In this document: piece by piece, positions 34,515-38,635 of the stretch
Position numbering within the stretch: position 1 is the stretch's first letter
How the letters are laid out: the number at the start of each line of letters is the position of its first letter
Origin: Acinetobacter bereziniae
GTDB taxonomy: Bacteria > Pseudomonadota > Gammaproteobacteria > Pseudomonadales > Moraxellaceae
DNA length: 38,783 nucleotides
Reading direction: 5' to 3'
Assembly (NCBI GenBank): GCA_009912575.1
Contig: WNDP01000025.1
Coordinates: forward strand, 1-38,783
Notes under the pieces: generated by a model
Database searches by the model: none
Seen by the model: only the letters and a program-made list of their open reading frames with translations
Told to the model about the DNA's origin: nothing
Made by a program: the position numbers and the translations under genes

Positions 34515-36658
34515 ATGGCTGGTGCTCATTTACCTTTTGATCCAAATTTGAATCGGGTGGATTCGCCTCAGCATTCTATAAGGCCTCAAACTGTACATTT
34601 TTCGAATGAGGTTAAATTTGCTTTAGATCAAATTCCACATCTGATTTGGATGACTAAATTCAGTGAGGGATATTACAACAGTGCTTTTAAACAATTTACT
34701 GGGATTGAAAATAATGACATCGACCATCAAGAGTGGATGCATTTTCTACATCCAGAAGACCTAGAGTATGCCCAACGCCTTTGGAACAGTGCGCAGAAAA
34801 CTGGACAGCGTTTTGAATTAGAGTGCCGTATTCGTCGTTTTGATGGGGAGTATCAATGGTTTTTACTGATCGCTCAAAGTGCAAATGAACAACAAAAATA
34901 CCGAGATTGGACAGTCACATGTAGCAATATTCATGAACAAGTTTCACAACTACGTGACACCCGTGAATCTTTAAAAGCCAATACAGACATGCTAGATGTC
35001 AGCGTTGACTGTATTAAAATCATTAGTCCTGATGGTTATGTTTCACATATGAATAAGTCAGGCTGTCTTGCATTACTTGGGCAAGAAAAAGTTACAAGTT
35101 TTGGTATGGAATGGTTGGGGCTTCTTCCCCCTGAAGTGCGAGAGCAAGGTAAAAAAGCCATCAAAGAAGCAGCCAAAGGAAAAAATGCACGTTTTGCTGG
35201 AAAAAGCGTTTTTGCCAATGTCACGATGTATTGGGACAATATATTAACCCCAATCGTCAATGAGGAAGGGGAAACGACCAGCATTTTATGCGTATCTCGA
35301 GATATCACCAAACAACGCATAGCTGAGGAAAAACTCAGGTTGAACAGTGAATTTGATGAAATGACGAGCTTAATGAATCGTCGTGTATTCAAGAAAAGAC
35401 TAAAATCTTCGATTAGCAAAGCCAAAGAATCTCGTGGAAAAATCGGGTTACTGTTAATCGACTTAGACCATTTTAAACATATCAATGATACTTTGGGACA
35501 TTCTGCGGGAGATCATTTACTCAAAGTTTTATCGAAACGACTGGCCAATTGTTTAGATGAATATGCCTATATTGCAAGATTGGGTGGGGATGAATTTGCT
35601 GTTGTGGTTGAAGATATCGAAAACGATCAGCAGATTGAAGTCGTTTCTAAAAAATTATTAAAACAGTTAGAAGCACCGATTACATATAGCGGAAAATTGT
35701 TAAATGGTGGTATGAGTATTGGTGGGGTCATCTATCCTGATGATGCGAAAGATGGTTCTGGACTTTTAAAATGTGCAGATACTGCTTTAAATGATTTAAA
35801 AGAGCGTGGACGGGGTGGTGTCCGTATGTTTGGTGCAGATATGTTTGAAATCGCTCAGGACAAAGCGAAACAATTGCATACTGCACGTCAAATGATTCGA
35901 AGTAATCAAGTGGAAGCATTTTATCAACCCAAAGTAAAATTGGTTGATTGTTCGATTATCGGATTTGAGGCATTACTCAGATGGCGAGATGTAGAAGGTG
36001 AGGTTTATTTTCCATCTACAGTTGCAGAGGCTTTTAATGATTTCGAATTGGCCACTAAAATCAGCGAAATCATGCATGATCGAATTTTTACCGATATGTC
36101 GGAAAGTGGATAGGGTTAGGCTTAAAAGTTGTTCCAATTTCAATTAATGCCTCTCCCGTTGAGTTTATGCGGGACAACTATGCTGAAATACTATTAAAAC
36201 GCTTGGTACACTATGCAATACCTGCTCATTTGATTGAAATCGAGATTACCGAACATGTACTTGCGGATCGTGGGTATGAATACGTGGTTCGTGCATTGAA
36301 AAAACTCAAAAATGCAGGCGTACGTATTGCTTTGGATGATTTTGGAACAGGGCATTCTTCAATGTCACACATCCGTGATTACCCAGTAGATAGCTTAAAA
36401 ATTGACTATAATTTTGTCAATCGTATGCATGAAGAGGACTCAATCAAGGCGATCGTTGAAGGAATTGCCAAGCTTGGTCCAATTTTATCTTTAGATATAG
36501 TCGCTGAAGGAATTGAAACTGTGCAACAGTTGAATAGCTTGATCGCAGTGGGTTGCAAATTTGGACAAGGTTTTTTATTTAGTCAGGCGATTGGTGCAAA
36601 TCAAGTTAAAAAAATGCTGAGCAAACAATTTTTAGTTTCTCCTATTGGATGCCATTGA
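34515..36658 (+). pseudogene. PAS-PAS-GGDEF-EAL cyclic-di-GMP protein, frameshifted in the EAL domain
   Basis: A cytosolic bifunctional-type c-di-GMP enzyme. PAS 1 is at about residues 35-145 and PAS 2 at about 150-280. GGDEF is at 357-361 with RLGGDEF intact and no RxxD inhibitory site (DEYA in its place). The EAL domain begins near 470 with FEALLRW at 484-490. The first frame stops at 36111-36113. One added base near 36105 restores WIGLGLKVVPISINASP and then the EAL residues: IEIEITEH, DDFGTGHSS, LKIDYNF, VAEGIET and GQGFLF, to 36658. The whole would be about 714 residues. As read, the protein keeps a complete diguanylate cyclase but loses the phosphodiesterase. AGGA sits 8 bases before the ATG. 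Confidence 0.88.
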
Positions 36659-36768: not shown

Positions 36769-36840
36769 ATGAACGACATGAAGATGTTAAAGCAACCTGT
36801 AATCGCTACTTCTTATTATTTCTGGCAATTCTTTAGATAG
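36769..36840 (+). CDS. Aromatic leader peptide 1 (attenuator)
   Basis: A 23-codon frame starting ATG 36769 (other in-frame ATG at 36778 and 36784) and ending TAG 36838-36840. Its end reads SYYFWQFFR: six aromatic residues in the last eight (two Tyr, three Phe, one Trp). The stop codon sits just before the first stem of the attenuator hairpins. This matches the classic layout in which ribosome stalling at scarce aminoacyl-tRNA controls termination. The Shine-Dalgarno sequence is weak. Confidence 0.75.
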   Translation: MNDMKMLKQPVIATSYYFWQFFR

Positions 36841-36841
36841 T

Positions 36842-36919
36842 TGCCTGAAGTCGTTCGGGCACTGAAATGGTTGCCCATCAAAGTTAATACCTGATCGGCA
36901 ACACCGATCAGGTTTTTTT
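36842..36919 (+). terminator. Attenuator: pause hairpin, antiterminator and intrinsic terminator
   Basis: Several alternative stems are visible. Pause stem: TGCCTGAA (36842-36849) with TTCGGGCA (36854-36861), one G-U pair. Alternative: GGGCA (36857-36861) with TGCCC (36872-36876). Antiterminator: GTTGCCCATCA (36870-36880) with TGATCGGCAAC (36892-36902), one mismatch. Terminator: CCTGATCGG (36890-36898) with CCGATCAGG (36904-36912), perfect, followed by seven T (36913-36919). The antiterminator uses the 5' arm of the terminator, so the two exclude each other. Translation of the leader peptide would decide which forms. Confidence 0.82.
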
Positions 36920-36975
36920 ATGCCTTAATGCTTACCATTTAAAATAGATTGAATTTAAAGTTTTTGGAGAATGTC

Positions 36976-37080
36976 ATGATGAAATTTAACACTGTATATT
37001 TTAGTAACTTTTATTGGTTTTACTTTGGTCAAATGAACAATCTTATTGCCCATTTGAATAGATCCCATACGCTCAAATAA
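36976..37080 (+). CDS. Aromatic leader peptide 2, directly before the DAHP synthase gene
   Basis: A 34-codon frame (ATG 36976, second ATG 36979) ending TAA 37078-37080. GGAG (36966-36969) gives it a strong ribosome binding site, better than that of leader 1. It contains VYFSNFYWFYFGQ: eight aromatic residues in thirteen (four Phe, three Tyr, one Trp). It is reached only by read-through of the terminator unless a separate promoter exists. The DAHP synthase start is 36 bases after its stop. Confidence 0.68.
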   Translation: MMKFNTVYFSNFYWFYFGQMNNLIAHLNRSHTLK

Positions 37081-37086
37081 AAGTTA

Positions 37087-37110
37087 GGACTGAGTTAGAG
37101 TCCAAAGGAA
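37087..37110 (+). promoter_or_regulatory. Hairpin and ribosome binding site of the DAHP synthase gene
   Basis: GGACT (37087-37091) pairs with AGTCC (37099-37103), next to the AAAGGAA ribosome binding site (37104-37110) of ATG 37117. CCAAAG (37102-37107) can alternatively pair with CTTTGG inside leader 2 (37023-37028), which would cover the start of that site. Confidence 0.4.
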
Positions 37111-37116
37111 TACATT

Positions 37117-38172
37117 ATGAATGCTTTAAATATTGCTTTACAACAAAATCAAACGATAGAAACTCAGCTTGCTTTGCCTTTTGAGTTAAAAGAAAAATTT
37201 CCATTAGAACATAAACTTGCTTTTCAAGTTGCTGAGCAACGTCAAACAATTCAAAACATTCTCAATGGTTTAGATCATCGCTTACTTGTGATCACAGGTC
37301 CATGCTCAATTCATGATGAAAAATCTGCGCTTGAATATGCAGATCGCTTAGTCCAATTACAAGAAAAAGTATCAGATCATATTTTTTTAGTAATGCGTGC
37401 TTATATCGAAAAACCACGTACAACAGTCGGTTGGAAAGGTTTTTTATATGATCCTGATTTAGATGGTTCTGCAAATATGCAGTTGGGTTTAGAGAAGTCA
37501 CGCCAACTCTATTTACAAATTATTGAAAAAGGTTTACCGATTGCCAGCGAAATTTTGAGTCCGATGGCAACAGCTTATTTTGATGATTTATTGGCTTGGG
37601 GTGCAATTGGTGCACGTACCAGCGAATCACAAATTCACCGTGAAATTTCAAGTCACATGCCGTTCAGTATTGGCTTCAAAAATGGTACAGATGGTTCGAT
37701 TCAAATTGCTTTAGATGCAATCCAATCTGCTAGCCATCCTCATCAATTCCTTGCCATGAGTCAAAAAGGTACACCGTCCATCATACATAGTCAGGGCAAT
37801 CCTTTGGCGCATATTATCTTGCGTGGTTCTAACAAAGGAACCAATTATGATGCTGCATCGATTCAACAGATTCGCCATCAACATCAAGGAAAATTGCCTG
37901 CGCTGGTGATTGACTGTAGTCATGGTAACAGCAGTAAAGATCCTTTAAAGCAACCGTTGGTTTTACAGCAAATTATTGAAGAAAGACATTTAACTCACGT
38001 TCGTGGAGTGATGTTGGAAAGTCATTTGGTCGATGGCAATCAAAAAATTTCTTGTGATATAACTTATGGTCAATCGGTTACGGATGGCTGTTTAGGTTGG
38101 AGTAAGACTGAGCAGTTGCTATTAGAAGTTGCTGAACAGCTCTCTGAAAAGACTTTAGCGTGTACGGCTTAA
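37117..38172 (+). CDS. aroG: 3-deoxy-D-arabino-heptulosonate 7-phosphate synthase, class I (AroF/G/H type)
   Basis: A 351-residue cytosolic enzyme condensing phosphoenolpyruvate and erythrose 4-phosphate, the first step of aromatic amino-acid synthesis. The metal ligand is Cys63 in TGPCSIHD; later ligands lie in IDCSHGNSSK (His), MLESHLVDGNQ (Glu) and SVTDGCLGW (Asp). The MRAYIEKPRTTVGWKGFLYDP and GAIGARTSESQIHRE substrate blocks are intact. Which aromatic amino acid inhibits it cannot be read with confidence, so the paralogue letter is tentative. Control by the upstream aromatic leader peptides is strongly indicated. It is monocistronic, closed by a bidirectional terminator. Confidence 0.93.
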   Translation: MNALNIALQQNQTIETQLALPFELKEKFPLEHKLAFQVAEQRQTIQNILNGLDHRLLVITGPCSIHDEKSALEYADRLVQLQEKVSDHIFLVMRAYIEKPRTTVGWKGFLYDPDLDGSANMQLGLEKSRQLYLQIIEKGLPIASEILSPMATAYFDDLLAWGAIGARTSESQIHREISSHMPFSIGFKNGTDGSIQIALDAIQSASHPHQFLAMSQKGTPSIIHSQGNPLAHIILRGSNKGTNYDAASIQQIRHQHQGKLPALVIDCSHGNSSKDPLKQPLVLQQIIEERHLTHVRGVMLESHLVDGNQKISCDITYGQSVTDGCLGWSKTEQLLLEVAEQLSEKTLACTA

Positions 38173-38260: not shown

Positions 38261-38635
38261 TTAAAGCCCAGCTTCATATTCAGCGTTACTGAGTAACTTT
38301 TCAACATCTGCAATATTGTCTGGTTTAATCTTATAAATCCAACCTTTGCCATATGGGTCATCATTGACAAAATCTGGATCATCTTCAAGAGCGGTATTTA
38401 CTTCGACCACTTCACCTGAGACAGGAGCATGAATATCAGAAACAGTTTTCACTGATTCAACGACACCTGCCTGAGCACCAGCAGTTACACGACTACCTAC
38501 TTCTGGAGCTTCAACATAAACAAGGTCACCCAAAGCATCTTGAGCATGATCTGAAATACCAGTAATCACGAGATCACCCTCAATTTTTGCCCATTCATGT
38601 GTTGCTGCATACTTCAAATCAGAAGGATGATTCAT
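38261..38635 (-). CDS. gcvH: Glycine cleavage system H protein
   Basis: A 124-residue lipoyl carrier of the glycine cleavage complex, shuttling the aminomethyl group between the P, T and L proteins. The lipoylated Lys63 lies in [19 protein letters not shown]. The N-terminal [13 protein letters not shown] and C-terminal GWIYKIKP blocks are typical, and the length is normal. Other gcv genes are not visible; they may lie beyond the right edge or elsewhere. It converges with aroG. Confidence 0.95.

Follow-up and report, generated by a model that had tools for sequence, protein, structure and literature searches.

The DAHP synthase gene aroG of an Acinetobacter genome is preceded by two aromatic-rich leader peptides in series, and the whole region is read here as a probable two-stage aromatic controller (to which we give a probability of roughly 0.6), in which a transcription attenuator would be followed by a second, translational leader. 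The stretch of DNA analyzed, 38,783 nucleotides long, is referred to as the window. On the same strand of the window, the order from 5′ to 3′ is leader 1, hairpin and terminator, leader 2 and aroG (table 1). The window belongs to Acinetobacter; a search with its aroG protein gave 141 relatives, and the best 80 of these, the named loci (some sharing one species), are all titled Acinetobacter.

Table 1. Features of the two leaders and of aroG in the window
Feature	Position	Strand	Evidence
Leader peptide 1, MNDMKMLKQPVIATSYYFWQFFR	36769..36840	+	ORF table; sequence
Attenuator hairpin 1:2, GCCTGAA/TTCGGGC, directly 3′ of the leader-1 stop	36843..36860	+	Fold and conserved blocks
Candidate antiterminator, GTTGCCCATC (36870-36879) with GATCGGCAAC (36893-36902)	36870..36902	+	Complementarity
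Intrinsic terminator, 10-pair stem 36889-36913, T run to 36919	36889..36919	+	Fold and terminator scan
SD-like GGAG, 6 nt before the ATG of leader 2	36966..36969	+	Sequence; alignment
Leader peptide 2, MMKFNTVYFSNFYWFYFGQMNNLIAHLNRSHTLK (ATG 36976, stop TAA 37078-37080)	36976..37080	+	ORF table, conservation, synonymous constraint, chance control
Putative helix A, 5′ arm UAUUUUAGU, codons Tyr-Phe-Ser, candidate antisequestor	36997..37005	+	Averaged pairing probability
Putative helix A′, AACUUUUAUU with AAUAAAAGUU (37076-37085)	37006..37015	+	Window fold; alignment
Putative helix B (sequestor), leader-2 arm, in the window CUUUGG with CCAAAG (37102-37107)	37023..37028	+	Sequence; duplex energy
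Putative helix A, 3′ arm GCUCAAAUA, at the leader-2 stop, highly conserved	37071..37079	+	Alignment
Hairpin P, GGACU (37087-37091) with AGUCC (37099-37103)	37087..37103	+	Pairing probability and covariation
SD of aroG, AAAGGA	37104..37109	+	Sequence and alignment
aroG (DAHP synthase), start codon ATG at 37117	37117..38172	+	NCBIfam NF009395/PRK12755, 478.9 bits (cutoff 343)

In the neighborhood of these features, gcvH is located downstream of aroG in convergent orientation (38261-38635, minus strand). A PAS-GGDEF-EAL type c-di-GMP gene is divided into two ORFs in different frames (34515-36113 and 36167-36658), the second being the remainder of the EAL part. This is either a broken gene or a sequencing error.

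As the preliminary description had it, and in agreement with the sequence and the ORF table, leader 2 is a frame of 34 codons with the GGAG spacing described, 8 aromatics in 13 residues (VYFSNFYWFYFGQ) and 36 nt between its stop and the aroG ATG. In the ORF table, the frame begins further upstream, at a TTG (36949). GGAG or GGA-type sites precede leader 2 in the alignment. When the ATG ORFs of the window with 10-60 codons were screened for at least 7 aromatics in 13, two were obtained, of which only leader 2 has an SD-like site. In the flanks of 80 related loci (359,272 bp), 11 ORFs with at least 7 aromatics in 13 were found, none of them with an SD-like site. The leader-2 observation is real and more than chance. 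The peptide had no match at E ≤ 1 in NCBIfam and Pfam, nor did the Rfam scan of the window at gathering give a match for leader 2, and its assignment to a known peptide or RNA family was therefore rejected. Rfam matches to snR54, IS102 and DicF (E 1.5-4.6) were taken as chance.

In the case of leader 1, the last eight residues hold six aromatics. A short ORF with a run of end-product codons and an intrinsic terminator before the structural gene are both present, and leader 1 with its terminator looks like a classical (trp/phe-type) transcription attenuator. The fold of 36835-36928 has a z of -3.74. The candidate antiterminator contains one C-C mismatch and overlaps the 5′ arm of the terminator, and both of its blocks are well conserved in the alignment, a pattern consistent with a switch between antiterminator and terminator at leader 1. 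Leader 1 was found in 80 of the 80 named Acinetobacter loci (best 80 of 141 relatives), or 81 of 81 by script when the window is included. A terminator follows it in all 81, as would be expected of the upstream transcriptional switch proposed earlier.

Both leaders, in the same order, are present in all 80 named loci (again the best 80 of 141). The 27 weakest, shortest or oddest matches of the genus were also fetched; two of these (L118 and L125) are named loci again, and in the 25 new divergent loci leader 2 likewise comes after leader 1. When 5 aromatics in 13 were required, 27/27 of these matches carried both leaders, and in several of the divergent ones the leader-2 sequence differs widely from the type form. 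In most Acinetobacter, the leader-2 motif SYFSNxYWFYF is strongly conserved. Phe and Tyr occur in every leader 2 of the 81 aligned loci and Trp is absent only in L040, the locus of A. baylyi; among the 27 divergent loci, Trp is absent from six (L131, L133 with the nearest ATG, L134, L135, L137 and L138). Since Phe and Tyr are always present in the aligned loci and Trp is sometimes missing, the first two are the steadier signals in Acinetobacter leader 2.

The segment from the leaders to aroG was matched in 170 of the 176 genomes of the genus. Of the unmatched six, G117, G129, G130, G149 and G169 gave only one DAHP synthase match each, a distant one, and G148 gave two, the best with E 1.6e-87. 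On this evidence, the leaders and aroG appear to go together.

A separate observation concerns six divergent loci (L112, L113, L117 and L121-L123), in which the synthase is only ~53% identical to that of the window and leader 2 overlaps its start codon. In these loci, the regulatory region and the gene have evolved at a different pace.

In 14 other genera of the host family, 26 loci were recovered with only a paralogue of 45-51% identity. The two aromatic leaders were not found before these 26 paralogues and before the second DAHP synthase of the window genome; in four of these 27 loci, some ORF with 5 or 6 aromatics in 13 exists (three TTG and two ATG starts). The survey of the wider order, which covers only homologues at E ≤ 1e-110, gave a match in 19 of 291 sampled genomes outside the genus, with 52-56% identity and in three families. 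One of these families was covered by 119 genomes, of which 85 gave a match. A set of 86 outside loci was assembled from 83 genomes (75 from one family and 8 from the two others), and a script search gave leader 1 in all but one of them (85) and leader 2 in 84, the leader patterns being permissive and adjusted beforehand to earlier loci. When the requirement was simply 4 aromatics in 13, 30/30 outside loci had both leaders in one count and 14/16 had leader 2 in another, the remaining two (L173 and L178) having the ORF in place with few aromatics. Outside the genus, leader 1 is of the type ...YFFYGYWFSQRRA and similar, and leader 2 of the type ...YYRNSDWRFSS... and similar. These loci are called Pseudomonas-type below, a label which rests on the P15 match.

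The serial layout, which the preliminary description had pointed out for one gene, is thus kept in the 80 named loci (of 141) and in three other families, and it is not peculiar to the window. Because both leaders are present in these three families of the order, the layout, as judged from the sequences, is older than the genus, and the peptide sequences have turned over. On the same comparison, it is present in at least four families of one order.

Upstream of the orthologous DAHP synthase gene, in most of the non-Acinetobacter loci scanned, the leader-1 region (L167-L212) is matched by Rfam RF00627, the Pseudomonas sRNA P15. At gathering, the matches amount to 32 of 38 loci (2/2, 10/16 and 20/20), in a set where three genomes (G440, G533 and G408) were scanned twice. 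In L185, where leader 1 is located at 968-1138 or 1004-1138, the match (1096-1216) runs from the last leader-1 codons to the terminator stem. This is the reason why P15 looks like, and probably is, the terminated leader of an attenuator. Reportedly, P15 was found by prediction and northern blot and was noted upstream of DAHP synthase with no function assigned. The family covers stage 1 only, under the name of an sRNA, and the likeness to the present system lies in its position upstream of the orthologous gene. The respective region of the window (36810-36914) scored 24.6 bits against RF00627 (E 0.0049), and was rejected as a member since this is below the gathering score of 70 bits. RF00627 had no match at gathering in the Rfam scan of the whole window or in three other Acinetobacter sources (one of which is the window's own locus, L139), and none at E ≤ 0.05 in eight other Acinetobacter loci.

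The comparative alignment, which had been named earlier as a check, showed that leader 2 and its codons are conserved in the relatives. In detail, the codons of leader 2 were compared with those of aroG in the same loci, L076 being counted in the wrong frame; these counts, like the permutation, pair and opening-energy figures given below, treat related loci as independent. At Phe positions 2 and 10, TTT was found 160 times and TTC never, compared with 268:225 in aroG. The Tyr of position 6 is encoded by TAT in 57/57 cases and that of position 9 by TAC in 64/78 (TAC makes up 28% in aroG). Similarly, the Ser of position 3 is AGC in 67/71 (18.5% in aroG) and the penultimate Leu, in the tail, is CTC in 70/76, against 4.4% of the Leu codons in aroG. 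These figures point to a strong constraint on the synonymous codons of leader 2 at the RNA level. Pairing could fix the opposite choices of the two Tyr codons, and amino-acid sensing alone would not. In the pairing context, TAT faces CCAAUG and the C of TAC faces the SD.

Three elements of RNA structure were considered in and after leader 2. Hairpin P is placed between the leader-2 stop and the SD of aroG, and its five pairs have a mean probability of ~0.9. In the alignment, 475 of 526 cells are paired (never above 44% when the register is slid) and six of seven pairs show double changes (one to four when slid). By inspection of folds, P-like hairpins occur in most divergent Acinetobacter loci and in Pseudomonas-type loci, and not in the six loci with an overlapping leader 2.

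Putative helix A joins, in the genus, leader-2 UAUUUUAGC with GCUCAAAUA at a mean pairing probability of ~0.3; 83% of its cells are paired in register, compared with 21-50% when slid, and only one pair has a double change. Helix A′ is clade-dependent and stronger in some clades (84% paired vs. 33-60% slid). In several loci of the lwoffii group the energy of helix A is positive or near zero, and in the window its duplex (-3.4) is no better than the null. The commoner form of putative helix B pairs leader-2 UAUUGGUUUUACUUU with the SD and start of aroG (AAAGGAAAGACCAAUG in many species), also with a probability of ~0.3; 75% of its cells are paired in register vs. 42-61% slid, with one pair showing a double change. 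For helices A and B, double changes are no more numerous than in the slid controls, so that the case for the two is one of conservation and modeling and covariation gives it no support. Because the two helices cross, they would be alternatives to each other.

Against the null, the mean duplex in the genus (n = 69) was -5.15 vs. -2.69 for helix A and -9.6 vs. -8.2 for helix B, with p ≤ 0.05 individually in 13/69 and 11/69, respectively. Own leader-2/RBS duplexes were also stronger than swapped ones (-9.6 vs. -9.1, permutation p 0.0026, N 69), and own helix B was better than the average partner in only 39 of the 69. Loci with a poor helix B are L020, L027, L040, L076 and L080.

In L009-type loci (haemolyticus and relatives), a change of leader-2 Asn AAC to Lys AAG coincides with a change of Thr ACG to Leu TTG in the tail. 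Together, the two changes lengthen helix A (AGCAAG:CUUGCU, about -9.6 kcal/mol).

For 77 distinct sequences, a ribosome footprint was moved along leader 2 and the cost of opening the aroG RBS was computed; the anchor of L043, here and in the duplex computations, was an upstream ATG, 9 nt from the conserved start. Without a ribosome, the mean cost was 5.5 kcal/mol; it was 2.8-4.4 when the footprint covered the aromatic motif and 6.2-6.9 when it covered the last eight codons. The opening difference (D) had a mean of 3.03 kcal/mol, compared with 0.79-1.38 in 24 synonymously recoded sets (control mean 1.1); it exceeded its own null mean in 58 of the 77 sequences, and p was ≤ 0.05 in 32. With a longer segment, D was at least 1 in 19 of 24 loci outside the window's subclade, 14 of these 24 being named loci again. 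On the average of the genus, a ribosome on the aromatic codons of leader 2 is predicted to open the aroG site.

The preliminary description had assigned the same role to a pairing of CTTTGG with CCAAAG. This pairing is located where it was placed, at the SD end of helix B, but, of the 78 distinct aligned rows, only four (the window, L002, L003 and L025) have CTTTGG there in the aromatic run, and the bare string occurs elsewhere in four others. As a general pairing it was rejected, since many species match UAUUGGUUUUACUUU with AAAGGAAAGACCAAUG instead. In the window, the start-codon half of helix B is lost because the spacer before the aroG start is ATACATT; the SD half is extended to CUUUGG:CCAAAG, which competes with hairpin P for two C's (the CC of CCAAAG). 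The best leader-2/RBS duplex of the window is -11.1 kcal/mol (p 0.147 vs. the synonymous null). No stall-dependent opening was predicted when the window RNA was modeled (D 0.4 vs. a null of 0.5, and -0.4 with the longer segment). Among its near relatives D ranged from -0.9 to 1.6, and only L004 (the same segment is in L087) was positive, at 1.6. The release of the aroG site by a stalled ribosome, as first proposed, thus fits the folding model for the genus on average, but not for the window's own RNA, and the proposed succession of a transcriptional and a translational switch is likewise supported for the genus on average. In the window's subclade, the predicted partner of the aroG start is instead the start of leader 2 (UCAUGAUG), and it is a speculation that a queue of ribosomes behind the stalled one could free the aroG start. 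We infer that stage 2 would also hold in this subclade, where the B pairing has drifted.

The recurrence of TTGCCCAT in both leaders, which had also been pointed out, is correct for the window (36871-36878 and 37046-37053), but it is not conserved. Among the 78 distinct rows, the leader-2 copy is found only in the window and L002; it looks coincidental and was rejected as a functional repeat.

Outside the genus, the paired segment of leader 2 differs among several lineages and the complementarity is kept. For instance, in many Pseudomonas-type loci the spacer from SD to ATG contains GCCAGUC or something close to it, which pairs with leader-2 GACUGGC (Asp-Trp-Arg codons). Leader 2 and spacer pair as CUGUUUUCC:GGAAAACAG in L197 (and the near-identical L247) and as AUUUUGCU:AGCAAAAG in L211 and L213 (partly in L227). 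The pairing is CUCGGGUU:AACCCGA in L219 and L224, and CCUCGGC:GCCGAGG in L203. The best duplex includes the Trp codon in 49/69 loci, and it is weak in others (e.g., L171, L173, L181, L212 and L223). In 69 of the 86 loci, own pairs had -13.6 vs. -12.2 kcal/mol for swapped pairs, with 0 of 20,000 permutations as low; own pairing was better than the partner average by >1 kcal/mol in 32/69 and worse in 10/69. Synonymous recoding of the Pseudomonas-type loci gave 2.59 vs. 1.96, with 1 of 20 replicates higher and 15/29 loci above the null, a weak separation, behind which there is perhaps the single, non-recodable Trp codon.

According to the proposed mechanism, a ribosome starved on the Tyr, Phe and Trp codons of leader 1 would favor the antiterminator and the polymerase would pass. 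On the read-through mRNA leader 2, an ORF directly upstream of the aroG RBS as in translational attenuation, would then be translated. Its run of aromatic codons would double as the 5′ arm of the long-range helix B over the SD and start of aroG. A ribosome stalled on this run would mask that arm and leave the aroG site free, whereas a ribosome reaching the leader-2 stop would mask the competing helix A/A′ and helix B would form. Hairpin P may hold the geometry or bring the SD to the helix B arm. The translation of leader 2, the stalling, the direction of control and the A/B switch are steps that we infer.

Coupling, TnaC-like arrest and a Rho effect, each described below, are less likely than two-stage attenuation. 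In the coupling explanation, only leader 1 senses aromatics and leader 2 is a coupling cistron, with ribosomes that end at its stop opening hairpin P and reinitiation at aroG raising basal translation. The geometry would suit this: in 81 loci, the distance from the end of leader 2 to the aroG ATG is 29-45 nt (29 nt in L043, measured to the ATG upstream of the conserved start), with hairpin P in between, and six divergent loci have a leader 2 that overlaps the start of aroG; reinitiation at leader peptides is proposed in general terms in passages of PMC4833913. However, coupling leaves unexplained why the aromatic codons persist in both Acinetobacter and the Pseudomonas type although the rest of the peptide has turned over, and why leader-2 codons are complementary to the RBS, and under it starvation would lower aroG. 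It is considered unlikely, even as the strongest of the competing explanations.

The conservation of the aromatic motif in most Acinetobacter would also be expected of a TnaC-like nascent-chain arrest peptide, sensing free Phe or Tyr by its amino-acid sequence. Nevertheless, much of the conservation falls at synonymous sites, and the sequence is wholly different in the Pseudomonas type and in several divergent Acinetobacter, where only the aromatic content and position are kept; an arrest peptide is thus quite improbable. Marginally less probable is that leader 2 governs Rho-dependent termination or mRNA decay before aroG and not initiation, since the complementarity is focused on the SD and AUG; on the plus strand of the window, no intrinsic-terminator-like site was found after leader 2, a result silent on Rho. 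That leader 2 is a chance ORF, or a functionless relic of leader 1, would agree with its AT-rich region and with the fold of the window's leader-2 region, which is no better than shuffles (z -0.05). It is hardly credible in view of the conservation across families, the SD-like site, the synonymous constraint and the chance control.

Amino-acid attenuators are usually taught as single-layer switches. The trp/phe-type attenuators of Enterobacteria share the codon run of leader 1, the alternative hairpins (candidates here) and the intrinsic terminator with the present system, which differs in having a second aromatic leader after the terminator, before the same gene, and in that this gene is the DAHP synthase of the common pathway. 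Translational attenuation of the erm/cat type relies on ribosome stalling at a leader, by which a sequestered RBS is made accessible. There the stalling is drug-induced and no terminator attenuator is known in front, whereas here amino-acid limitation would be the cause.

Closer relatives in the literature are each similar in part. A "translational attenuator" is predicted for the trp operon of Shewanella in a passage of PMC5343134 (citing Panina et al. 2001); it shares RNA-level translational control of an aromatic biosynthesis operon in a gamma-proteobacterium and differs in the gene. The LEU element of actinobacterial leuA, described from comparison only in passages of PMC1262725, has a leader codon run which pairs with the SD and an alternative structure. 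The amino acid, the phylum and the structure are different, and these passages describe no serial upstream transcription attenuator. In our case there is no Leu-codon leader before leuA, both gene and codons being others, and the likeness lies only in a codon run that would pair with the SD. Tandem attenuators with two short ORFs in one leader mRNA are reported for Salmonella mgtCBR in PMC3641672, where both ORFs act on transcription and sense ATP and proline, whereas here both leaders are aromatic and the second is proposed to act on translation. Two leader peptides are also mentioned for ErmB in PMC8274638.

The literature search was limited to titles and abstract openings, with most subscription papers outside it, and in it no description was found of two leaders before a DAHP synthase, or of one biosynthetic gene with two serial aromatic leaders, one transcriptional and the other translational. 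The main text of PMC8297930 (on P. aeruginosa 3′ ends) does not contain "aroF," "DAHP" or "leader peptide"; PMC4263517 has PA1750 only as a pulled-down protein; and "Acinetobacter," "aroG" and "tandem" do not occur in PMC4833913.

In its wider form, toward which we lean slightly, the two-stage reading holds that in at least four families one mRNA would respond twice to one signal, the shortage of aromatic aminoacyl-tRNA, first in transcription and then at the RBS, with P15 as the discarded product of stage one. If true, having the two leaders in series would make the response sharper, or amount to an AND gate that also controls mRNAs already transcribed. Such a conserved arrangement, in which transcriptional and translational leaders answer to one signal on one biosynthetic gene, would be a new regulatory logic, and it suggests a role for the RNA P15. 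DAHP synthase is the entry step for aromatics, and its control matters for metabolic engineering in Acinetobacter and Pseudomonas-type bacteria.
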